Source: Omnitrophica WOR_2 bacterium GWF2_43_52
Lineage (GTDB): Bacteria > Omnitrophota > Gorgyraeia > Gygaellales > UBA12090
Direction: 5' to 3'
DNA: 33,928 bases
NCBI GenBank assembly: GCA_001805445.1
Contig: MHGF01000034.1
Location: 1 to 33,928 of the forward strand
Shown: positions 10,091 through 33,928 of the stretch, piece after piece
How positions within the stretch are numbered: position 1 is the stretch's first letter
Layout: each line of letters starts with the position of its first letter
The notes under the pieces: model-generated
Databases searched by the model: none
What the model saw: the letters and a program-made list of their open reading frames with translations, nothing else
What the model was told of the DNA's origin: nothing
Translations under genes and position numbers: made by a program

Positions 10091-10096
10091 GATAAA

Positions 10097-10172
10097 CGGG
10101 GTCGACGGGATTTGAACCCGCGGTCTTCGCCGTGACAGGGCGATGTGTTAAACCGAACTACACCACGACCCC
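10097..10172 (-). tRNA. tRNA-Asp (GTC)
   Basis: A 76-nt cloverleaf. The acceptor GGGGTCG pairs with CGACCCC, the anticodon loop is CTGTCAC (anticodon GTC), and the T arm is GCGGG-TTCAAAT-CCCGT. Discriminator G; CCA is not encoded. Confidence 0.95.
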
Positions 10173-10180
10173 AGAAATAC

Positions 10181-10611
10181 AGAAATAAGAGTAAAGAGGT
10201 AAGAGTAAAGAAAATTTAAAATCTTAGAGATTTAACTATTTTACACAAAATTTTAATTACTTCAATGTTTTCTTTTTCTATTATTGATATTTTCTCCTTA
10301 TCAGGAATGATTTCGGTATCTTTTAAGACTTGCAGCCAATTATCCAACTCATACGCTGAATTCAAAGCAATTTGAAAATAACTCTCTTTTTGCTTGGGTG
10401 CCGCTGATTCGTTTCCTTCCGCGATATTCGCGCCTACTGAAGTAACACAACCAAGACACTGATCTATAATGCGGCCATACCTCGAGCTGCAATCTTTTAT
10501 TAACGCTATCAAGATAAGCGCGTTTTTATGCGCCTTTTTCCATACCACCAACCTTCTATACCGAGGCTCATCCTCTAACATCTTTTCTCTTAACTCTTTA
10601 CTCTTACCTCT
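10181..10611 (-). mobile_element. Four-helix-bundle cassette 1 with inverted heptamer-array ends, between two tRNA genes
   Basis: Left end 10181-10215: five 7-nt units (AGAAATA, AGAGTAA, AGAGGTA, AGAGTAA, AGAAAAT). Right end 10584-10611: four units of the same sequence in inverted orientation (TTTCTCT, TAACTCT, TTACTCT, TACCTCT). A 17-nt stretch of one end is perfectly complementary to the other in the transcript. The gene fills the space: its stop touches the left array and its ATG is 3 nt from the right one. The cassette lies 7-8 nt from tRNA-Val on one side and tRNA-Asp on the other, in their transcription direction. That it is mobile is inference. Confidence 0.6.
10216..10581 (-). CDS. 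Four-helix-bundle protein (23S rRNA intervening-sequence protein family)
   Basis: 121 residues, the usual family length. Diagnostic pattern: VVWKKAHKNALILIALI, GCVTSVGANIAEGNES (the S.GANIAEG motif), YFQIALNSAYELDNWLQVL. The family (S23/IVP, related to Avd accessory proteins) is known from ORFs in intervening sequences of 23S rRNA, where it forms small helical oligomers. Its biochemical role is unsettled and RNA or DNA binding is suspected. Here it sits between tRNA-Val and tRNA-Asp, bracketed by inverted heptamer arrays. It has no promoter of its own that I can see, so tRNA operon transcription probably feeds it. The purine-rich array upstream supplies AGAGG-like ribosome sites. Confidence 0.88.
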   Translation of the reverse strand: MLEDEPRYRRLVVWKKAHKNALILIALIKDCSSRYGRIIDQCLGCVTSVGANIAEGNESAAPKQKESYFQIALNSAYELDNWLQVLKDTEIIPDKEKISIIEKENIEVIKILCKIVKSLRF

Positions 10612-10618
10612 GTTTTAA

Positions 10619-10692
10619 TGGGCGATAGAGGACTTGAACCCCTGACCCTCTGCGTGTAAAGCAGATGCTCTAACCAGCTGAGCTAATCGCCC
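10619..10692 (-). tRNA. tRNA-Val (TAC)
   Basis: A 74-nt cloverleaf. Acceptor GGGCGAT/ATCGCCC, D arm GCTCAGCTGGTTAGAGC, anticodon loop TTTACAC (anticodon TAC), T arm AGGGG-TTCAAGT-CCTCT. Discriminator A; CCA not encoded. It is upstream of cassette 1 and tRNA-Asp. Confidence 0.95.
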
Positions 10693-10730
10693 GATAAAAA
10701 TTGCTAGTTCGTAAAAATAACTATTGCATT

Positions 10731-10815
10731 CTAACCAGTCCGCCTACGCTCGTTTCGCTCACTACGGCGGACCCGCCGAAGCACAAAGTGCGTAGGCGGG
10801 CTGAGCTAATCGCCC
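10731..10815 (-). pseudogene. tRNA-Val 5'-half copy split by a palindromic repeat
   Basis: CTAACCAG (10731-10738) and GCTGAGCTAATCGCCC (10800-10815) reproduce the D-loop/D-arm and 5' acceptor end of tRNA-Val. They are interrupted by a GC-rich palindromic repeat of about 61 nt (10739-10799, CCGCCTACG ... CGTAGGCGG). The anticodon, T arm and 3' acceptor are missing, so it cannot be a working tRNA. It lies just upstream of the true tRNA-Val. Confidence 0.75.
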
Positions 10816-12079: not shown

Positions 12080-13011
12080 ATTATAAGGCTTCCAACGAGG
12101 GCTTTTATGCCGCTGATTTTGTGTTTCTCTAAATACTTCTTAAGCCCTGCAATAATATCAATAGTTGTTTTGGGATTAATAAAATTCGCGGTCCCCACGC
12201 TTATAGCGCTTGCTCCGGCAAGAAAAAACTCGAGGGCGCTTTCTGTATCCATTATCCCACCCATGCCAATGATGGGAATTTTTACTTTTTGATACACTTC
12301 CCACACCATGCGCATAGCAACAGGGCGAATTGCCGGGCCGCTTAAGCCGGCAGTAACCATGGCAATTTTAGGTTTTCTAGTTTTTACGTTAATACTCATT
12401 CCCATAAGAGTATTAATCAGCGCAACAGCATCAGTTCCCGCGCGTTCCGCGGCAAGGGCAATTTCCGTAATATCCGTAACATTGGGTGATAATTTAGTAA
12501 TTAACGTTTTGCGCGTAACGTTACGCACCGCCTTAACCACTTCGTAGGTAGCTTGTGGATTCTGGGAAACAAGTCGTCCCTCGTCCCTCGCCCTTCGTCC
12601 TTCGTGAATATTCGGGCACGAAATATTCAACTCAATCGCCGAAACTTCTTTAATCGCGTCTAAGCGCCTAGCCAGGGTTATAAATTCATCTGTATCGCTC
12701 TCCGAAGCAATACTCACAATTATCGGCACGCCTGTCTTTTTTAAAAAGGGCAGTTTTTCCTGAATAAATTTCTCCATGCCCGGGTTTTCTAAGCCAATGG
12801 AATTAAGCATTCCTGCCGGAGTCTCGCAGGTACGCGGCGGCGGGTTGCCTTGACGAGGCTTTAAGGTTATAGTCTTAGTGACAATCACCCCTAATTTCTT
12901 TAGGTCTACAAAATCTTTAAATTCCTCGGCATACCCAAAAGTACCCGAGGCAACCATTACGGGATTTTGTAATTCCATTTTTCCAATTTTTACTTTTAGA
13001 TTGGGTTTCAT
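12076..13011 (-). CDS. pyrD: Dihydroorotate dehydrogenase B, catalytic subunit
   Basis: Class 1B enzyme, oxidising dihydroorotate to orotate with FMN and passing electrons to PyrK. 311 residues: NPVMVASGTFGYAEEF at the N-terminus, LENPGMEKF, ELNISCPN (active-site Cys of class 1B), TKLSPNVTDI, VTAGLSGPAIRP, GMGGIMDTESALEF (phosphate/FMN site). About six residues more than usual follow SCPNI: HEGRRARDEGR is encoded by a heptamer array at 12574-12608, in frame, in a surface loop. It starts 3 nt after the pyrK stop and ends overlapping pyrF. Confidence 0.96.
   Translation of the reverse strand: MKPNLKVKIGKMELQNPVMVASGTFGYAEEFKDFVDLKKLGVIVTKTITLKPRQGNPPPRTCETPAGMLNSIGLENPGMEKFIQEKLPFLKKTGVPIIVSIASESDTDEFITLARRLDAIKEVSAIELNISCPNIHEGRRARDEGRLVSQNPQATYEVVKAVRNVTRKTLITKLSPNVTDITEIALAAERAGTDAVALINTLMGMSINVKTRKPKIAMVTAGLSGPAIRPVAMRMVWEVYQKVKIPIIGMGGIMDTESALEFFLAGASAISVGTANFINPKTTIDIIAGLKKYLEKHKISGIKALVGSLII
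12574..12608 (-). repeat. Heptamer array inside pyrD
   Basis: Five consecutive 7-nt units on the plus strand: TCGTCCC, TCGTCCC, TCGCCCT, TCGTCCT, TCGTGAA. It is read through in frame by pyrD as Arg/Glu/Gly-rich residues. Confidence 0.75.
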
Positions 13012-13013
13012 CT

Positions 13014-13925
13014 TTACCAGATTATCTCCCCTGCTTCAAACACCGGGCCTTCTTTACATACGCGCTTGTATTCAAAGACGTCCTTCGTCTCTCGTTCTAC
13101 GTCCCTCGTTTTTATAACGCACCCCATGCACGCCCCAATGCCGCAGGCCATGTGCGATTCTAAGGATAGCTGCGCGGGAATAGTATGCTCAAGGGATATG
13201 CGGCTGATTTCTTTGAGCATTGGGATGGGGCCGCAGGCGTAAATAGTCAATATCCGATAGTCAATAGTCGATAGTTCCTTTTTAAGCAAATTAGAAACAT
13301 ATCCTTTGAAACCGCGGGAACCGTCGTCGGTAGCAACCCTTACCTCACATCCTAAGTCCCTAAATTCCTTTTCACACAAAATGCTATCCTTTGTCTTTGC
13401 CCCAATTAACACTTTCGTCCTTCGTCTTTCGTCTTTCGTCCCTCGTTCCCTTAATCTCTCCGCCAAAAACACAAGCGGCGCCGTCCCCATTCCTCCGGCA
13501 ACTAAAACTATTCGTCCATCGTCCTTCATCCTTCGCCCGCCACACTGCTCTGGCGGGCGTCCGCCAGCGCTTTGTGGCGGACGTCCTTCGTAGTCAAAGC
13601 CATTCCCTAACGGGCCGATAACATCCAAATATTCACCCGCCTTCCTAGTGGAAAGAATCTCTGTCCCTTTTCCTACCACTTCATAAAGCATTACTATAAA
13701 TTCTTTTTCTTTTGACGTGTGACTTTGTGACCTTGCAACCTTGCGACCTATTCTGTGAATAGAAAGCGGCCTGCGCAACAGCGGCTCGCTACCATCGCTA
13801 ACCTTAATATTCACAAACTGCCCCGGCAGAGCGCTTTTGGCTATTTGCTGGGCAGTTAAAGCAATCTCGAAGTAATTTTTCTTAATTTTATTATTATAAA
13901 TGATTTTTGCGCTTACCTGAAACAT
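13014..13925 (-). CDS. pyrK: Dihydroorotate dehydrogenase electron-transfer subunit
   Basis: Iron-sulfur flavoprotein that hands electrons from PyrD to NAD. 303 residues, longer than the usual 250-260. RRPLSIHRI (FAD site), GGMGTAPLVFLAERL (NAD site), CGPIPMLKEI, and CGIGACMGCVIKT plus RVCKEGPVF (the four 2Fe-2S Cys). The excess length comes from four repeat insertions, all in frame. They are an octamer array near residue 60, a palindrome-bearing array near 115-140, a heptamer array near 165, and a heptamer array between the third and fourth cluster Cys. The last could affect the cluster. It starts the pyrK-pyrD-pyrF set and follows the methyltransferase gene. Confidence 0.93.
   Translation of the reverse strand: MFQVSAKIIYNNKIKKNYFEIALTAQQIAKSALPGQFVNIKVSDGSEPLLRRPLSIHRIGRKVARSQSHTSKEKEFIVMLYEVVGKGTEILSTRKAGEYLDVIGPLGNGFDYEGRPPQSAGGRPPEQCGGRRMKDDGRIVLVAGGMGTAPLVFLAERLRERGTKDERRRTKVLIGAKTKDSILCEKEFRDLGCEVRVATDDGSRGFKGYVSNLLKKELSTIDYRILTIYACGPIPMLKEISRISLEHTIPAQLSLESHMACGIGACMGCVIKTRDVERETKDVFEYKRVCKEGPVFEAGEIIW
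13079..13113 (-). repeat. Heptamer array in pyrK (2Fe-2S region)
   Basis: Five units: CGTCCTT, CGTCTCT, CGTTCTA, CGTCCCT, CGTTTTT. It encodes an extra Asp/Glu/Arg-rich loop (about RDVERETKDVFE) between CMGCVIKT and YKRVC of the 2Fe-2S domain. Confidence 0.75.
13414..13448 (-). repeat. Heptamer array in pyrK (NAD domain)
   Basis: Five units: TTCGTCC, TTCGTCT, TTCGTCT, TTCGTCC, CTCGTTC. It encodes the basic stretch ERGTKDERRRTK after the NAD-binding motif. Confidence 0.75.
13511..13592 (-). repeat. Heptamer array with nested double palindrome in pyrK
   Basis: TTCGTCC, ATCGTCC, TTCATCC, TTCGCCC units (13511-13538) and a GTCCTTC unit (about 13583-13589) have the same orientation. They flank two GC-rich palindromes (GCCCGCCA...TGGCGGGC and TCCGCCA...TGGCGGA). 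It is in frame and encodes EGRPPQSAGGRPPEQCGGRR. Confidence 0.7.
13719..13750 (-). repeat. Octamer array in pyrK
   Basis: Four 8-nt units: GTGACTTT, GTGACCTT, GCAACCTT, GCGACCTA. It encodes RKVARSQSH just after the FAD motif. Confidence 0.65.
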
Positions 13926-16272: not shown

Positions 16273-19200
16273 GTCTCTTTTTCGTCCCTCGTCCCCCTGC
16301 CCTGAGCGGCTTGTGGTGAGCGTAGTCGAACCAAGTCGAAGGGTCGTCCTTCATCCTTCGTATTTTATGATACGCCTGTATCGGCTTTACCTCTAACCTG
16401 TGTTTAATAAGCGCCTCTATCCCCCGCGCGCAGGCATCTGCGCCGGGCAGCGTCGTGACTACCGGTATCCCCAAGGAAATCGCGGTGGAGCGGATTTTCA
16501 CTTCATCCTGCCGGGGAATTTTTCCGGAAACGGTATTAATGATAAGCTTGATTTTTCCCTCTTTCAGTAAATCAAGAACATTCGGATTACCTTCGCTTAC
16601 TCTTTGTATTGTCCGGGTAATAATTCCACTTGCTTCAAGAAATTTCGCGGTTCCCAGAGTTGAAATTATATCGAATTTCAAATCCTTTAACCTCTTGGCG
16701 GTTTTTACCATACTCGGTTTCTTATCCTTATCTTTCACGCTAATAAACACACTTCCTTTTTCTGTGGGTAAATTTTGATACGCGGCTAACTGGCTCTTGG
16801 CGTAGGCGCGGCCAAATTCCGTATCTATCCCCATAACCTCGCCTGTTGACTTCATTTCCGGGCCTAAGGTAATGTCTATCCCGGGGAATTTTACAAAAGG
16901 CAAGACAGATTCTTTTACGGCAATATGTTTGGGAATAATTTCCTTAGTAAAACCTAAATCCTTAAGCTTCTCACCCGCCATTACCTTGGCGGCTAATTTT
17001 GCCAAAGGTACTCCTATTGCCTTTGAGACAAACGGCACGGTGCGGGATGCCCGGGGATTTACCTCCAGAATATACACGGTTCCGTTTTTAAGGGCATACT
17101 GCACATTCATTAAGCCGATGACATTTAATTCCTTGGCCAATCGGTAGGTATAGTCTCTGACTTTATTAATTGTCTCTTGGGCCAACGTATGCGGCGGAAG
17201 CACCATTGCGGCATCGCCCGAATGTACTCCGGCTTCCTCAATATGTTCCATAATTCCGCCGATAACAAAAGTTTCTCCGTCCGCAACCATATCCACGTCA
17301 ACTTCAATAGCATCCTCAATAAACTTATCTACCAATACGGGCCGCTCCGGAGATGCCCAGACAGCTTTTTGCATATAATGTTCTAACGCCTTGTCATCAT
17401 AGACAATTTCCATCGCCCTGCCGCCTAAAACATACGACGGCCTGACTAAGACCGGATAGCCGATTTTTTTAGCAACTGCTTTTGCCTCACTAACCGTAAC
17501 CGCAAGGCCATTTTCCGGTTGTGTTAAGCCCAATTTTTCCACCAGCTCTGAGAAACGTTTTCTGTCTTCAGCCCGGTCAATAGCATCCGCGCTTGTACCG
17601 ATAATTTTGACGCCGGCTTTTTCAAGGGGGACTGCCAAATTAAGAGGGGTCTGTCCGCCAAGCTGCACAATAACACCATCAGGCTGTTCTTTATCTATGA
17701 TGTTCAAAACATCCTCTTTCGTCAACGGCTCAAAGTATAATTTATCAGAGGTGTCGTAATCCGTTGAGACCGTTTCCGGATTAGAATTAACCATAATAGT
17801 TTCATAACCTAATTCCTTCAAGGCAAATGAAGCGTGCACACAGCAATAATCAAATTCAATCCCCTGCCCAATCCTATTGGGCCCGCCGCCTAAAATCATA
17901 ATCTTCTTCTTGGCTGTTTTTCTAATCTCATCGTCTCTCGTCTCTCGTCTTTCATCCTTCGTCTCTCGTATAAATGGCGTCTCGTAAGTAGAATAATAAT
18001 ACGGGGTAAACGCCTCAAACTCCGCCGCGCAGGTATCTACCAGCTTATACACCGGCTCAATACCGCTTTCTTTTCGTAAACGCCTTATCGCGTCTTCGTC
18101 GGAATTGAGTATTTTAGCTATCTGCCTGTCGCTAAAGCCCAACTGCTTGGCCTTTAGCAATAGTCCACAGTCCACGGTCCACGGTCCACGGTTTTGTGTC
18201 TGTGACTGGTGACTGGTGACTGGTGACCGAAGTTTTTCTTCAAACTCAACAATCTCTTTTAAATTCTGCAGAAACCAGCGGTCGATTTTAGTTAAGGCAT
18301 AGAGCTTGTCCAAAGAATACTTCTCTTTTATTGCCTCATAGAGGTAAAATAGCCTCTCGGCGTTCGGCCTTTTTAACTGTGCCTCCAGTTCCGCGGTATC
18401 CTTATACTGTATTCCGCTGAGGCCATCGCGTTTTATCTCAAGGCCGCGGATACCCTTTTGCAAAGCCTCTTTGAAGGTGCGTCCGATTGCCATTACTTCT
18501 CCAACAGACTTCATCTGGATAGTCAGCGTAGAATCCGCCGTGGGAAATTTCTCAAAGGCAAAACGGGGAATCTTTACCACGCAATAATCTATTGTTGGTT
18601 CAAAAGAGGCAGGAGTATTTTTGGTAATATCGTTAGGAATTTCGTCTAAGGTGTAACCGATTGCGAGTTTCGCGGCAATCTTGGCTATAGGAAAACCGGT
18701 GGCTTTAGAAGCAAGGGCTGATGAACGGGAAACGCGGGGGTTCATCTCAATAATCGTCATTCTCCCGTTATCCGGATTGAGGGCGAATTGGATATTTGAG
18801 CCGCCGGTCTCTACGCCGATTTCCCGTATACAGGCAATTGCCGCGTCGCGCATTTTCTGATATTCCCTATCAGTCAATGTCTGGGCAGGGGCAACCGTAA
18901 TAGAATCTCCGGTGTGCACACCCATCGGGTCAAAGTTCTCTATTGAACAAATAATAACCACATTATCTTTTTTATCCCGCATAACCTCAAGTTCGTATTC
19001 CTTCCAGCCAAGGATAGATTCCTCAACCAGAATCTCGGAAATCATGCTTGACTCTAAACCCCGCTGGGCGATAATCTCGAATTCTTCTTGGTTATATGCT
19101 GTGCCGCCGCCTGTTCCTCCAAGAGTAAACGACGGACGAATAATAACCGGAAAACCGATTTGTTGTGCTACTTTTCGCGCCTCTTTCATTGTATAGGCAA

Positions 19201-19642: not shown

Positions 19643-19651
19643 AGTATGAAA

Positions 19652-20067
19652 TTATAAGTTATAAATTATGAGTTATGAGTTAGCAAGCCTGGATTCACTG
19701 GTTTTAACAATTGCTGTTAAAATATTAATAATTTCATTAGCTTCGGTCAATAAATTTGGTAAATTACTACTTTTTGTTAATTCCGTATCATTAATAAGCC
19801 TTAACCAATATTTTGTTTCACGCGCTTCTTTCTTGGCAATATTGATTTTATTCACGAAATCTTTTTTACTAGATGCTCCTTGAGCCTCTTCTATATTTGC
19901 GCCTATTGACGTTCCAGACCTAATTAATTGTCTTGCTAAAGATACAGTTGCGGTATTATAAGGCATGCTTTTAACAAATTTAACTATTTCTAAAGCAAAA
20001 TCGTAAGTTCTATCTTGAATCTTTTCTTTCTTCATAACTTATAATTTATAACTCCTCATTTATAACT
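19652..20067 (-). mobile_element. Four-helix-bundle cassette 2 with inverted heptamer-array ends, between carA and carB
   Basis: Left array 19652-19679: TTATAAG, TTATAAA, TTATGAG, TTATGAG. Right array 20033-20067: CATAACT, TATAATT, TATAACT, a diverged CCTCATT, TATAACT, i.e. the inverse unit. About 20 of 21 nt can pair between the two ends in RNA. The gene's ATG and stop codon are both formed by array units, and the right array also contains the carA stop (20056-20058) and its last codons. Unit sequence differs from cassette 1 but the plan is the same. Confidence 0.6.
19673..20035 (-). CDS. Four-helix-bundle protein (23S rRNA intervening-sequence protein family), second copy
   Basis: 120 residues: YDFALEIVKFVKSMP, ARQLIRSGTSIGANIEEAQG (SGTSIGANIEEA signature), FVNKINIAKKEARETKYWLRLI. 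This is the S23/IVP family, but a different subfamily from the copy at 10216, so the two are not a recent duplication. It lies between carA and carB in their direction. It is presumably translated from the operon mRNA: the ATG is 21 nt past the carA stop, with a GAGGAG sequence about 16 nt upstream of the ATG. The last residues (LANS) and the TAA are encoded by heptamer units. The role is unknown; a link to the flanking arrays is inference. Confidence 0.88.
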   Translation of the reverse strand: MKKEKIQDRTYDFALEIVKFVKSMPYNTATVSLARQLIRSGTSIGANIEEAQGASSKKDFVNKINIAKKEARETKYWLRLINDTELTKSSNLPNLLTEANEIINILTAIVKTSESRLANS

Positions 20068-21156
20068 TCTAATCAACTTAACAAATCTTTCAAACAAATA
20101 CCGGGCATCATGCGGCCCAGGGCCTGCTTCTGGATGATACTGTACGCTAAAAAGCTTCAGTTTCTTATGCTCTAGCCCTTCGGCTGTGCCGTCATATAAA
20201 TTCTGATGGGTCATTACTAAATTTTTATCAGACAATGATTTCATATCCACATTAAAACCGTGATTTTGGCTGGTAATGGCAACTGCCCCTGTTTTTACAT
20301 CTTTGACCGGATGATTTCCCCCATGATGGCCGAATTTAAGTTTATAGGTCTTGCCGCCTAAAGCTAACCCTAACATCTGGTGGCCTAAACAAATCCCGAA
20401 GATAGGAAGTTTCCCTATAAGTTTACGTACAGTTTCAATAACATAGGTTACTGCCTCTGGGTCGCCCGGGCCATTTGAAAGCAAGAGCCCATCGGATTTA
20501 AGTTTTAGTATTGCTTCTGCGGGCGTGTGTGCCGGAACTACTTTAACCTTACAGCCAACTCTGGTTAAATTCCGCAAGATATTAAACTTCACCCCGCAAT
20601 CTAAAACAATCACTTTGTAACGAGGGATGAGAGACGAGGGACGAGGGACGGATAACCAATCATACGGCTCTTTACACGTTACCTCTTTCACCAAATCCAC
20701 GCCCGCGAGCCGTGGCGCTACTTTTAGTTTTTTCATCAGGCTATGTATGTCAAAATCTTCACTGGAAATAACTCCTTGCATTGCGCCTTTTATGCGTAGA
20801 TGACGGGTTAATGCCCGGGTATCTATTCCCTGAATTCCAACCACCTTATATTTTCTCAAATATTCATCAAGGTTCATTGTAGAACGCCAATTTGAGCGTA
20901 TTGAGCTTAGTTCTTTAACCACAAAACCTTCAAGCCAGGTTTTACAAGATTCAACATCTTCCTCATTGACGCCGTAATTGCCGATTAAAGGATACGTCAT
21001 CATCACGATCTGCCCTTTGTAAGAGGGATCGGTAATAATTTCTTGATAGCCGGTAATTGAGGTATTAAAAACCACCTCACCAAAAGCTTCGCCTTGAGCG
21101 CCAAAATGTTCGCCCTCAAAAATCGTCCCGTCTTCTAAGAGTAATATTGCTTTCAT
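20056..21156 (-). CDS. carA: Carbamoyl-phosphate synthase small subunit (glutaminase)
   Basis: Class I glutamine amidotransferase subunit that releases ammonia for CarB. 366 residues. N-terminal domain: ILLEDGTIFEG, FNTSITGYQEIITDPSY. Glutaminase: LLSNGPGDP, IFGICLGHQMLGLALG (nucleophile Cys), SVQYHPEAGPGPHDA (catalytic His-Glu). A heptamer array at 20621-20648 adds VPRPSSLIPRY between the domains. The last residues RSYK and the TGA are made by the right-hand array of cassette 2. It starts 21 nt after the SLOG gene, apparently in the same operon. Confidence 0.97.
   Translation of the reverse strand: MKAILLLEDGTIFEGEHFGAQGEAFGEVVFNTSITGYQEIITDPSYKGQIVMMTYPLIGNYGVNEEDVESCKTWLEGFVVKELSSIRSNWRSTMNLDEYLRKYKVVGIQGIDTRALTRHLRIKGAMQGVISSEDFDIHSLMKKLKVAPRLAGVDLVKEVTCKEPYDWLSVPRPSSLIPRYKVIVLDCGVKFNILRNLTRVGCKVKVVPAHTPAEAILKLKSDGLLLSNGPGDPEAVTYVIETVRKLIGKLPIFGICLGHQMLGLALGGKTYKLKFGHHGGNHPVKDVKTGAVAITSQNHGFNVDMKSLSDKNLVMTHQNLYDGTAEGLEHKKLKLFSVQYHPEAGPGPHDARYLFERFVKLIRSYK
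20621..20648 (-). repeat. Heptamer array in carA
   Basis: Four units: CGAGGGA, TGAGAGA, CGAGGGA, CGAGGGA. Here the purine-rich strand is the plus strand, opposite to the arrays in carB and pyrD. It is in frame between the two CarA domains. Confidence 0.72.
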
Positions 21157-23401: not shown

Positions 23402-23405
23402 ATAA

Positions 23406-23464
23406 ACTGTTAAATGGTTAAACTGCTAAACTGTCAACAATTTAACTGTTTGGCAATTTAGCAA
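23406..23464. repeat. Inverted octamer-array pair between endoQ and mut7C
   Basis: ACTGTTAA, ATGGTTAA, ACTGCTAA, ACTGTCAA (23406-23437), then CAA, then TTTAACTG, TTTGGCAA, TTTAGCAA (23441-23464), the inverse unit. It folds on itself. It overlaps the mut7C stop (23442-23444) and lies 5 nt upstream of the endoQ ATG. The same octamer family occurs at 26150-26200. Confidence 0.7.
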
Positions 23465-23900
23465 TTATTTCTTTTACATTACCCCTGTGGCTGCCCTGCC
23501 AGTAAATCTTTTGGCAACGCGGACAATTGACAAAATTCTCCTGTGACTTAAATACATATTCGGGAACTTTATCTTTAACCTTTTCTTTTTCTATCACGCT
23601 GAGGGCCTCATTACAGAGAATACAGCGTGTAAACATTTGCGTTTCATCTGCCGCGAATGAAAGTTCCGATAACACCTGCTGTATCTGCGCGTACACACTA
23701 TCGGATTTTATGTACAACGTTCTTATGCCGGAGTGCGCCCCCCAATGGCTATTACGCGTGAGCACTATCCTGTCTTCTTGTAATGCCCTTAGGCTAAGGC
23801 TTCCCTCTTTATTTTCAGCGTGATATTCCGTGTCAAACCCTAAAATCTTCAACCACTTAGCCAACCGCCCCAACTCTTTTGTAACAATGAACTTCATCAC
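23442..23900 (-). CDS. Mut7-C (DUF82) putative RNase domain protein
   Basis: 152 residues: FIVTKELGRLAKWLKILGFDTEYH, ALQEDRIVLTRN, and the C-terminal zinc ribbon CILCNEAL...CPRCQKIYWQGSH. This is the Mut7-C domain, a PIN-like fold with conserved Asp residues plus a four-Cys zinc ribbon, found in eukaryotic Mut-7 exonucleases and as small bacterial and archaeal proteins. It is predicted to be an RNase; substrate unknown. The start overlaps the pyrC stop (ATGATGA context), so translation is coupled. The last residues and stop lie in the octamer array. Confidence 0.85.
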   Translation of the reverse strand: MMKFIVTKELGRLAKWLKILGFDTEYHAENKEGSLSLRALQEDRIVLTRNSHWGAHSGIRTLYIKSDSVYAQIQQVLSELSFAADETQMFTRCILCNEALSVIEKEKVKDKVPEYVFKSQENFVNCPRCQKIYWQGSHRGNVKEIIAKLPNS

Positions 23901-26149: not shown

Positions 26150-26200
26150 ACTGCTAAACGGCTAAAAACAGTTTAACAGTTTAGCAATGTAGCAATTTAA
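26150..26200. repeat. Inverted octamer-array pair between pyrB and pyrR
   Basis: ACTGCTAA, ACGGCTAA (26150-26165), AAA, then CAGTTTAA, CAGTTTAG, CAATGTAG, CAATTTAA (26169-26200), the inverse unit. It contains the pyrR stop (26197-26199) and is the same octamer family as 23406-23464, in the same operon. Confidence 0.7.
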
Positions 26201-26742
26201 CTATTGTCCTTCTCTATAATCACCACTTCATCGCAGCCGTCGCTTTCTGCTAAGCGCACTTCCACTGTTTCATTGCAGGCAGTGGGAATATTCTTTCCCA
26301 CATAGTCAGCGCGGATAGGCAGCTCCCGATGGCCCCTGTCCACGAGTACCGCAAGTTGTATGGTCTTTGGCCTGCCAAAATCTATGAGTTCGGATAAAGC
26401 GCAGCGAATCGTACGCCCCGTATACAACACATCGTCTACTAAAATAATGTTTTTATCGGTGATATCAAAATTGATTTCCGTTTTATGCACCACGGGTTGG
26501 TAATTAAGAAGCGTCAGGTCATCCCGGTACAAGGTAATATCCAAAATTCCTACCGGCACTTCCTTACCGTCTATTTTCTTAACGCAGTCTGCTAAGCGCT
26601 TGGCAAGGTGCGCCCCGCGGCTTCTGATACCTACAATTGCCAGGTTATCGGTAATACGATTGTGTTCTAATACCTCATGGGCAATGCGTATCAGGGTTCT
26701 GGATATTGTCTGTGCGTCTAAAATTTTGGTTTTTTCTCTCAT
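26197..26742 (-). CDS. pyrR: Bifunctional pyr operon regulator / uracil phosphoribosyltransferase
   Basis: 181 residues from the ATG at 26740-26742; an upstream in-frame TTG at 26758-26760 lies in the attenuator stem and is unlikely. [16 protein letters not shown] is the PRPP-binding loop; [17 protein letters not shown] and [14 protein letters not shown] are PyrR-type. PyrR binds operon leader RNA in the presence of UMP and favours termination, and can also make UMP from uracil and PRPP. The start is only 5 nt beyond the attenuator U-tract, with no good ribosome site, so initiation may be weak or leader-controlled. It is the first gene of pyrR-pyrB-pyrC-mut7C-endoQ. Confidence 0.94.
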
Positions 26743-31899: not shown

Positions 31900-33928
31900 T
31901 TATATATCCAAATTCTTCACCTGATGGGCGTGATTTTCAATAAACTGCCTACGCGGCTCTACCTGATCTCCCATTAATACCGTAAACATTTTATCCGTTT
32001 CTACCGCGTCTTCTAAGGTCACTTTTAACATGGTGCGCTTTTCGGGATCCATTGTGGTTTCCCAAAGCTGCTCCGGATTCATCTCGCCCAAACCCTTATA
32101 TCTTTGTATGTGCATACCCTTTACGGCCTGCTCCTTCACATACTCTAAAATTTCTTTTAGGCAGATAAAATCCTTTTGCTCTTTTTCTGAGCTGGTAATT
32201 CTATATACTGGCTTAACCTTAGCTTCTTGCTGTTTCCCTGAGGTTTCTTTATCCTGAACCAAGGGCTCTTGGGCATATACAGCGATATCCAAGCCTAGCT
32301 TTTCAATTTTCGCAGCCGCTGCTTCTATTTCTGACGCCTCAAAAAGCTCTAATATTTCGTGGTTATTCTCTTTTCCCTCTTCCGTAAGCTTTGCCAGCTC
32401 ATCGTCAGAATAGACGAACTGGTCTTTTCCATCCACTTTTACCCTATAAATAGGCATTTTTTTGGTCTTTTTATGCATAAAAGTGAGATATTTTACAAAA
32501 TTTACTCCCTTTTTGTCCAAAATCCTGCTATATTTTTCCAGCTCTACCAATAATGCTAGAAGCTCCTTAAACTGATGGTCTGTAAATGTCTGTTTATCCT
32601 TGAGGCGGATAAGCGTATTTCCTTCCCTGCCCAAGTCGAGGATCAAATCATTCATCTTGCTTTCGGTTTGGATATATTCCTCACGCTGGCCCCTTTTAAT
32701 TTTATAAAGCGGCGGCTGCGCTATATAGACATAGCCGCCTTCTACTAATTTTGGCATCTGCCGGTACAAAAGGGTCAATAAAAGTGTCCGGATATGTGAA
32801 CCGTCCACATCAGCATCGGCCATAAGCACCAGTTTATGATAGCGTAATTTTTCCACATTAAATTCTTCCCCTATTCCTGTGCCTAAGGCGGTAATAATGG
32901 TACGGATTTCCTCGTTAGACAAAATTTTATCCAAACGTGATTTCTCCACATTCAGGATTTTTCCCTTAATAGGCAGTATTGCTTGGAACCTGCGGTCGCG
33001 CCCTTGCTTGGCACTGTTATGGACAAAAACACCACTTGCTAGAGCAAAATTATGGGTATTCGGGACTTCTATATCATAAACGTCTATTGTTTCCTTAATT
33101 TTTTCTATAGATTTAATCTTGTGATTAAAAGCTGCTACTGCCTCTTGTAATTTACTTATATCGCCTTCAAAAAATCTTTCTATCAAGGTATTCAGCTTGA
33201 CAATATTATTATTTCTTTTCTCTAAGGCTGTTCGTTCTTCATCATAACGGCTTATATCCGTGTACTTTTCATAAATCTTTTTGGCAAATGCAAGGCTTTC
33301 ATGTAAATAAACTTGATTATACGCAGCTTTTCTTTTTATCCTAAATTCTGCTGTCCACTGCTCTTTTGTCTTTTGCCTGCGCCATTCCAACAATGTGCTC
33401 TCTAGCCATTCTGTTTTTGCTTTTTTAGACAGATGTGCTTTAGCCTGAAGATTAGTTTTAAAATATTCCTTAACCCTGTTGGCTTGTTTTAACCTGTTCG
33501 CCGGATTAGACCAATGATTTCTTTGTGCCTCATTTAGTATTTTTAAATTCTTCTTTCTATACTCTTTATTGGTAGAATAAAATTCTAAATACTTCTTAAC
33601 CATATAACCTTTATATCCGGCATCCTCCCACTGTTTTTTAGCTTTTGCGCTTAGCATGCTGCCGTATTCTTCCCTAATTTTCTTAGAAATTTTTTCTCTG
33701 TATTCACTGGTCTTTTTTATTTTATTGCATTTTTCTATTGTTTCTTTGCTATGGAGCGTCCGTTTTGCCTGTTGTTTATGCAGCTCCAGATGCTCCTCTT
33801 TTAGCATTCTTACTACATTATCAGGATTATTATTTAACTTGTTAAAATCAATATGGTGCTTATGAACGCCTTTACTTTCTTTGTAAACTGCATGCTCTAG
33901 GTTATCCCTGTCCGCTAATACATGGGTA
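31900..33928 (-). CDS. gyrB: DNA gyrase subunit B, C-terminal part, with intein (5' end off the window)
   Basis: The C-extein (31903-33015, 371 residues plus stop) starts SAKQGRDRRFQAILPIKGKI and has DADVDGSHIRTLLLTLLYRQMP and QRYKGLGEMNPEQLW, i.e. the TOPRIM domain and tail of GyrB. About 170 residues between these blocks form the insert seen in Gram-negative GyrB. The frame continues to the window edge through an intein (33016-33928 and beyond). The intein sits in the TOPRIM core, where the host sequence is normally EGDSAGG|SAKQGRD. The N-extein and the start of the intein are not in the window. Confidence 0.93.
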   Translation of the reverse strand, partial: THVLADRDNLEHAVYKESKGVHKHHIDFNKLNNNPDNVVRMLKEEHLELHKQQAKRTLHSKETIEKCNKIKKTSEYREKISKKIREEYGSMLSAKAKKQWEDAGYKGYMVKKYLEFYSTNKEYRKKNLKILNEAQRNHWSNPANRLKQANRVKEYFKTNLQAKAHLSKKAKTEWLESTLLEWRRQKTKEQWTAEFRIKRKAAYNQVYLHESLAFAKKIYEKYTDISRYDEERTALEKRNNNIVKLNTLIERFFEGDISKLQEAVAAFNHKIKSIEKIKETIDVYDIEVPNTHNFALASGVFVHNSAKQGRDRRFQAILPIKGKILNVEKSRLDKILSNEEIRTIITALGTGIGEEFNVEKLRYHKLVLMADADVDGSHIRTLLLTLLYRQMPKLVEGGYVYIAQPPLYKIKRGQREEYIQTESKMNDLILDLGREGNTLIRLKDKQTFTDHQFKELLALLVELEKYSRILDKKGVNFVKYLTFMHKKTKKMPIYRVKVDGKDQFVYSDDELAKLTEEGKENNHEILELFEASEIEAAAAKIEKLGLDIAVYAQEPLVQDKETSGKQQEAKVKPVYRITSSEKEQKDFICLKEILEYVKEQAVKGMHIQRYKGLGEMNPEQLWETTMDPEKRTMLKVTLEDAVETDKMFTVLMGDQVEPRRQFIENHAHQVKNLDI
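33016..33928 (-). mobile_element. GyrB intein with HNH homing-endonuclease-like region (partial)
   Basis: At least 304 residues. The C-terminal splice block reads VYDIEVPNTHNFALASGVFV then HN followed by Ser+1, the standard block F/G arrangement. Near the right edge KHHIDFNKLNNNPDNVVRM (33847-33858 for HHID) followed by EEHLELH is an HNH nuclease signature. Between them lies a Lys/Arg-rich helical region of about 200 residues (NKIKKTSEYREKISKKI, RNHWSNPANRLKQAN), probably DNA-binding. LAGLIDADG motifs are absent from the visible part. Confidence 0.85.

Follow-up and report, generated by a model that had tools for sequence, protein, structure and literature searches.

S23 genes between inverted heptamer arrays: a cassette in an Omnitrophota tRNA operon and its relatives across phyla

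To our knowledge, S23 proteins have until now had a fold without a function; likewise, it has not been known how the intervening sequences (IVSs) of rRNA genes spread or what makes heptamer repeats. Here, we analyze a 33,928-nt contig of Omnitrophica WOR_2 bacterium GWF2_43_52 (MHGF01000034.1; the whole contig is called the window), in which an S23 gene lies between two inverted arrays of 7-nt units, inserted between the genes for tRNA-Val and tRNA-Asp (the Val-Asp cassette). One system with comparable parts is REP/RAYT (repetitive extragenic palindromes and their associated gene), which consists of short foldback repeats with one autonomous gene-bearing form, flanked by REPs, and many gene-less copies. 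S23 cassettes share with it the short foldbacks and the division into a gene-bearing form and gene-less copies. By contrast, RAYT is an HUH-type transposase, whereas S23 has no recognized catalytic domain, and the S23 units are tandem heptamers that vary between the cassettes of one genome. No Y1 (HUH) transposase is encoded in the cassette, of which S23 is the sole gene.

Among rRNA IVSs, that of Coxiella carries three tandem GACAGAT heptamers ahead of its S23 start codon, in a copy number that varies between strains; RNase III cuts its stem in vitro within the heptamer region, and its S23 protein has been reported as decaying (PMC4990558). The Val-Asp cassette resembles a 23S rRNA IVS of this type in having one S23 open reading frame (ORF), a length of ~430 nt and complementary ends that give a long stem. 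It differs in its host, which is a tRNA operon (for cassettes elsewhere, mRNA operons) and not an rRNA gene, and in the purifying selection on its protein, in contrast to the decay reported for Coxiella. Many bacteria have an excess of heptamer repeats, such as GGGAATC in Xanthomonas and GGGGAYT in Nostoc, generally with no mobile-element association (PMC4692102), and TAACTGA heptamers occur in Beggiatoaceae and cyanobacteria with no transfer mechanism evident (PMC4679880). Like the S23 arrays, these repeats, including the short tandemly repeated repetitive (STRR) sequences of cyanobacteria, are intergenic, degenerate tandem 7-nt units, often in inverted pairs; no protein is named for them in either paper, whereas S23 cassettes have such units as both ends. 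Internal tandem repeats also build up the long inverted ends of Drosophila Foldback-type elements (abstracts of PMC3573991 and PMC3688188, on Galileo). Foldback-type elements, however, are eukaryotic DNA transposons with transposases, and their ends are much longer. In papers under an open license, we found no general link between S23 and heptamer arrays, and an earlier report elsewhere is possible.

The S23 cassette between tRNA-Val and tRNA-Asp

The Val-Asp cassette is built as a preliminary description of this DNA had it: a gene between inverted AGAGTAA/AGAGGTA arrays that can pair over 17 nt with no mismatch, close to two tRNA genes and on the same strand as both (Table 1). The spacing to either tRNA is ~7 nt. 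On the + strand, the array at the tRNA-Asp side reads AGAAATA AGAGTAA AGAGGTA AGAGTAA AGA, and besides the 17-nt match at 100%, the arms show a 42-nt match at 83% complementarity. In RNA folding, the arms form a 20-bp uninterrupted stem around the S23 ORF, and the cassette reaches -131.3 kcal/mol, compared with -96.1 +/- 6.2 for shuffled sequences (z = -5.66). The inverted arrays are not a product of chance, given this deviation from the shuffles and the large excess of S23 loci over control ORFs reported below. No group I or group II intron family matched, the Rfam scan of the window at gathering thresholds giving tRNAs only.

The gene had been taken for an S23/IVP four-helix bundle, and profile searches and structure prediction agree. 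Its scores against PF05635 and TIGR02436 (Table 1) exceed the curated cut-offs of 33.8 and 24 bits, AlphaFold2 (AF2) predicts an up-down bundle of four helices (pLDDT 95.2), and Foldseek places the model nearest the solved S23 proteins 2gsc and 2rld, with template modeling (TM) scores of 0.85 and 0.77; each of these structures contains five chains. The next-best likeness is Avd (4dwl, and also Avd in the reverse transcriptase complex 8ub7 of a diversity-generating retroelement), which shares the four-helix-bundle fold at a TM of ~0.75 but has a sequence identity of 12–14%; the locus shows no reverse transcriptase (RT), template or variable repeat, although the two kinds of repeat had no separate search. 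Compared with its orthologs, the Val-Asp S23 protein has dN/dS values of 0.127 and 0.129, which indicate purifying selection.

The 3' end of the gene contains a promoter-like motif (Table 1), which persists in two deletion remnants of the cassette in relatives, G003 (TTGAAG-16-TACAAT) and G002, where most of S23 has been lost. Because both remnants kept it, tRNA-Asp may now rely on this motif, hinting by consensus matching at a candidate tRNA-Asp promoter captured by the element. On the other side, part of the 5' region of tRNA-Val is present once more (CTAACCAG ... CTGAGCTAATCGCCC), adjoining the tRNA-Val gene at 10727-10815; this second copy is interrupted by a G+C-rich palindrome (TCCGCCTACGCTCG...GTGCGTAGGCGGG) that looks like another small insertion.

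Heptamer arrays at S23 genes across phyla

S23 genes elsewhere were expected to be enriched for inverted tandem units, and they are. Of 126 Omnitrophota S23 loci, 88% have complementary flanks; the figure is 7.7% for control ORFs and 4.8% when pairs are swapped. When the two arms were located independently, by periodicity, arrays were present on both sides at 104/125 Omnitrophota loci (91 of period 7, 8 of period 8), at 65/78 loci from many other phyla, a non-random set picked by similarity to one protein, L067, and leaning to its relatives, and at 12/13 loci on plasmids, compared with 7/145 control ORFs; a further class-wide sample gave 22/26. Identity within arms is 0.61 at lag 7, 0.57 at lag 14 and ~0.25 at other lags, and by this lag-7 periodicity, S23 cassettes carry degenerate, STRR-like tandem 7-nt units. 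Flanking by arrays is the general rule for S23 genes and not a curiosity of one locus. L397, the nearest relative found of the Xanthomonas 2gsc gene (64% identity), has no arrays, and in a phage collection S23 had no match at the threshold applied. The 2.47-Mb genome studied here contains seven S23 genes, six with inverted repeat arms detected by a repeat finder and the seventh (L002) with arms recognized by eye, and their units differ from cassette to cassette (GTCTATA, TAGCGGT, TTATAAG, the 8-nt ATTGCTAA, AGAGTAA, GTAGTAA and TTCGAAT).

The arms of a locus are mutually inverted, with a unit similarity of 0.878 when read inverted and 0.551 otherwise (n = 165). Unit similarity between loci climbs with S23 amino acid identity, even between Omnitrophota and other phyla (from 0.52 at <20% to 0.84 at 60–80%), and the linkage of unit and protein was matched in 0/300 permutations of a Mantel test. 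AGTGGNN units are frequent with L067-like proteins whatever the phylum, and AGTG units occur at 39/71 non-Omnitrophota loci. This linkage is compatible with a protein that recognizes its array and with long joint descent alike. Most of the complementarity of the arms comes from the unit that they share: exact matching between them was 18.2, compared with 16.4 for shuffled units (p = 4e-6), and 18% of loci were individually at p <= 0.05. Given so modest an excess in an unbiased test, exact compensatory pairing was rejected as the sole cause of arm similarity.

The set also includes an IVS in its classical position. In L325, on a plasmid of Azospirillum lipoferum, the S23 gene lies inside a 23S rRNA gene (Rfam RF02541, 1378 bits) and the ends are inverted heptamer arrays of the GACAGAN type, of which the upstream one is short and falls under the automatic both-side threshold of the periodicity count. 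Since L325 and the Coxiella IVS both carry heptamers, rRNA IVSs and the Val-Asp cassette are best treated as a single class whose members have landed at different sites. The proposal of an IVS-like element in a tRNA operon therefore holds for the anatomy, which has the same ends in L325 and Coxiella (PMC4990558), but not for tRNA operons as the usual host: these are one target among many, and a minority, a tRNA lying within 150 nt of 11/219 S23 genes (compared with 0.67% of random stretches). All adjacent tRNAs (14/14) are co-directional with S23, and the ratio of co-directional to opposite neighbor genes is 155:21 upstream and 141:40 downstream. S23 genes are recurrently placed inside operons, including carA-carB, cas6-cas4 and the nrd genes. 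Within the CRISPR operons of cyanobacterial plasmids, they occur at cas6-cas4 and cas10-cmr3 (L314, L315 and L318), and the annotation of S23 as CRISPR-associated may be an artifact of cassette insertion.

Empty, filled and decayed sites, and gene-less arrays

S23 cassettes are mobile, as demonstrated by empty sites, independent insertions and remnants at tRNA-Val/Asp, at carA/carB and upstream of recA. That the Val-Asp cassette is an insertion, as first supposed, is borne out by the many relatives with an empty spacer of 3–190 nt. The site is not empty in all of them: G006, of the same family, and G039, of another family of the order, carry the gene there by descent, yet with repetitive flanks. 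Of the two remnants, that in G003 retains both arrays and the S23 3' end; in G002, the 3' end is left together with a single array. The arrays of the orthologs have changed jointly on both sides (AGAGTAA/AGAGGTA, AGAAGGA and AGAACTA), and because of this and the purifying selection on the protein, the insertion is judged old and kept; it is common to two families.

At the second site, the carA-carB gap is <=25 nt in 16/30 relatives, two genomes (G000 and G006) have it filled by S23 cassettes that differ in lineage and in unit, and at least six relatives have gene-less heptamer foldbacks there with yet other units. Upstream of recA, several species of one genus have the empty site TTTTTATTGTTTGACAG, filled in G036 by an S23 cassette with AAGCTNT units and in G393 by one whose S23 is of another subtype and whose units are CTAAACC; G395, G394 and G293 have remnants. 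Possible short TATT-like direct repeats at the recA site would point to a target-site duplication, but the signal is not distinct enough. Overall, the distribution of S23 is patchy (32/58 relatives). A dispersed hairpin, CCCTCCTTTTTACGTCTATTGAAGGTAGAAAGGGGG, recurs at many genome positions in one genus (L358 and relatives), upstream of recA and elsewhere.

The window contains many heptamer and octamer arrays with no S23 gene, several of which are foldbacks, some in frame within pyrimidine-biosynthesis genes (Table 1). Peptide-encoding in-frame arrays were seen at 12570-13536, 17928-18236 and 20616-20656 (peptide ending GPWTVDCG), in pyrimidine-biosynthesis genes that include carB and carA, and such peptide repeats in annotated proteins may be insertions. 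The array inside carA did not stand out as a clean insertion, the alignment of relatives having a variable linker of similar length at its position. For a survey of gene-less arrays, we took ~20 kb at the tRNA loci of 57 genomes in the order. The density of period-7 arrays per 100 kb is 5.7 where the genome has S23 and 2.35 where it does not, and such arrays are present in 20/31 S23-bearing versus 7/26 S23-less genomes (Mann-Whitney p = 0.004), with most other periods near zero. At 31900-33807 of the window, a GyrB-like ORF opens with a long region ending IEVPNTHNFALASGVFVHN, followed by SAKQGRDRRFQ. This region has the look of an intein that includes an endonuclease-like part and sits at the gyrase B SAKQGRD motif.

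Table 1. Coordinates of the Val-Asp cassette, its neighbors and other arrays of the window
Feature	Position	Strand	Evidence
S23/IVP gene, 121 aa	10216..10581	-	PF05635 69.6 bits, TIGR02436 76.5 bits
5' heptamer array, coding strand AGAGGTA AGAGTAA AGAGTTA AGAGAAA AGA, immediately 5' of start codon	10580..10612	-	sequence, repeat finding, RNA fold
3' heptamer array, inverted copy of 5' array	10181..10213	-	sequence; 17 nt 100% complementary to other arm
tRNA-Val(tac), upstream neighbor of S23 cassette	10619..10692	-	ARAGORN + Rfam
tRNA-Asp(gtc), downstream neighbor of S23 cassette	10096..10173	-	ARAGORN + Rfam
Promoter-like TTGAAG-16-TAAAAT within S23 gene 3' end, candidate tRNA-Asp promoter	10238..10265	-	consensus match only
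Second S23 cassette, in the carA-carB gap; gene at 19673-20035, inverted heptamer arrays of TTATAAG type	19645..20072	-	
Gene-less heptamer foldback (AGTCCAC../..GTGACTG), in frame within carB	18153..18236	.	period-7 scan, sequence, ORF translation
Gene-less 8-nt foldback, unit resembling that of S23 cassette L004 (TTAGCAAT/TTAACAGT)	23403..23466	.	period scan
Gene-less 8-nt foldback, L004-like unit type as at 23403..23466	26150..26206	.	
Heptamer array TCGTCYY, in frame within dihydroorotate dehydrogenase-like ORF	12570..12610	.	period scan, translation
Heptamer array TCGTCYY within next ORF, electron-transfer subunit-like	13403..13452	.	period scan, translation

Proposed mechanism and competing explanations

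We hold with moderate confidence that the Val-Asp cassette belongs to a widespread class of minimal mobile elements, S23 between inverted degenerate heptamer (sometimes octamer) arrays, and that their mechanism includes RNA-stem cleavage. Such an element would insert into transcribed spacers, co-directionally with transcription, and pairing of its arrays in the co-transcript would give a long duplex stem open to cutting by an enzyme of the RNase III type. Cutting would release the flanking RNAs, here pre-tRNA-Val and pre-tRNA-Asp, and insertion would, we propose, do little harm for this reason. Excision from the RNA through the array stem is plausible, given the predicted 20-bp stem (z -5.7), and anatomy, orientation and IVS precedent together favor a transcribed-spacer element neutralized by RNA stem cleavage. 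The S23 protein is probably pentameric, as are its relatives of solved structure; it would recognize its own lineage's heptamer array, in DNA or in RNA, and take part in the spread of the cassette, perhaps also of gene-less foldbacks; at Val-Asp, the element would now be fixed and vertically inherited. More tentatively, it is possible that S23 proteins are the partner so far lacking for bacterial heptamer repeats, that each S23 lineage recognizes its own 7-nt unit, and that cassettes and gene-less foldbacks form one autonomous/non-autonomous system across phyla. Special cases of it would be rRNA IVSs and at least some of the orphan heptamers found in cyanobacteria and elsewhere among bacteria.

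Several results weigh against this account. Joint descent could produce the linkage of unit and protein with no recognition involved. The excess of arm matching is real but modest, weaker than expected if pairing were the sole constraint. S23 has no nuclease or polymerase domain with which to move the cassette. Approximately 17% of S23 loci lack the two-sided arrays. Finally, the units of gene-less arrays match those of resident S23 genes only sporadically and not significantly overall (p 0.13); derivation of these arrays from resident cassettes is rejected despite single good matches, and we accordingly treat their mobilization in trans as hypothetical.

With so small an excess of arm matching, the arrays could also have a role at the DNA level, and they might act at this level only, as terminal recognition sites for transposition or homing in the style of foldback transposons, with the RNA stem as a by-product. 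In keeping with this, the arms share a unit family and not an exact stem, foldbacks lie in frame within coding genes, where RNA excision would harm, and empty and filled sites exist. We nevertheless consider a purely DNA-level element unlikely: the strong co-orientation with transcription favors an RNA role, an rRNA IVS cut by RNase III has the same anatomy (PMC4990558), and the cassette provides no transposase of its own. The resemblance of the S23 model to Avd (4dwl, 8ub7) raises the alternative of a retroelement moved by an RT in trans, with S23 in the role of Avd, but RVT_1 was found in just 8/31 S23-bearing genomes (3/26 S23-less), and because most S23-bearing relatives lack it, as does the locus, we regard this as improbable. 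We give still less credence to a host regulatory module, in which S23 would bind its own arrays in mRNA and tune the expression of its operon, with spread incidental; the purifying selection on S23, its recurrent placement inside operons and its persistence at Val-Asp would suit such a module, but the patchy distribution, the decay to remnants and the unrelated targets fit a selfish element better. Passive co-occurrence, in which S23 merely lies near slippage-made heptamer repeats, of which many bacteria have an excess (PMC4692102) and which the window often shows with no S23 gene, is rejected as barely credible, being contradicted by the control ORFs (both-side inverted same-unit arrays at 5%, against 83% of S23 genes) and by a unit that tracks protein lineage across phyla.

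The evidence points to a widespread, poorly recognized kind of mobile element, classical rRNA IVSs included. The tight cross-phylum link of S23, IVSs and heptamers turns binding of S23 to its own heptamers and cutting of the stem into testable questions. The arrays provide a simple marker for unnoticed mobile cassettes in core operons such as carA-carB and those for tRNAs, CRISPR and ribonucleotide reductase, and they carry a warning for annotation, as some in-frame peptide repeats may be insertions.
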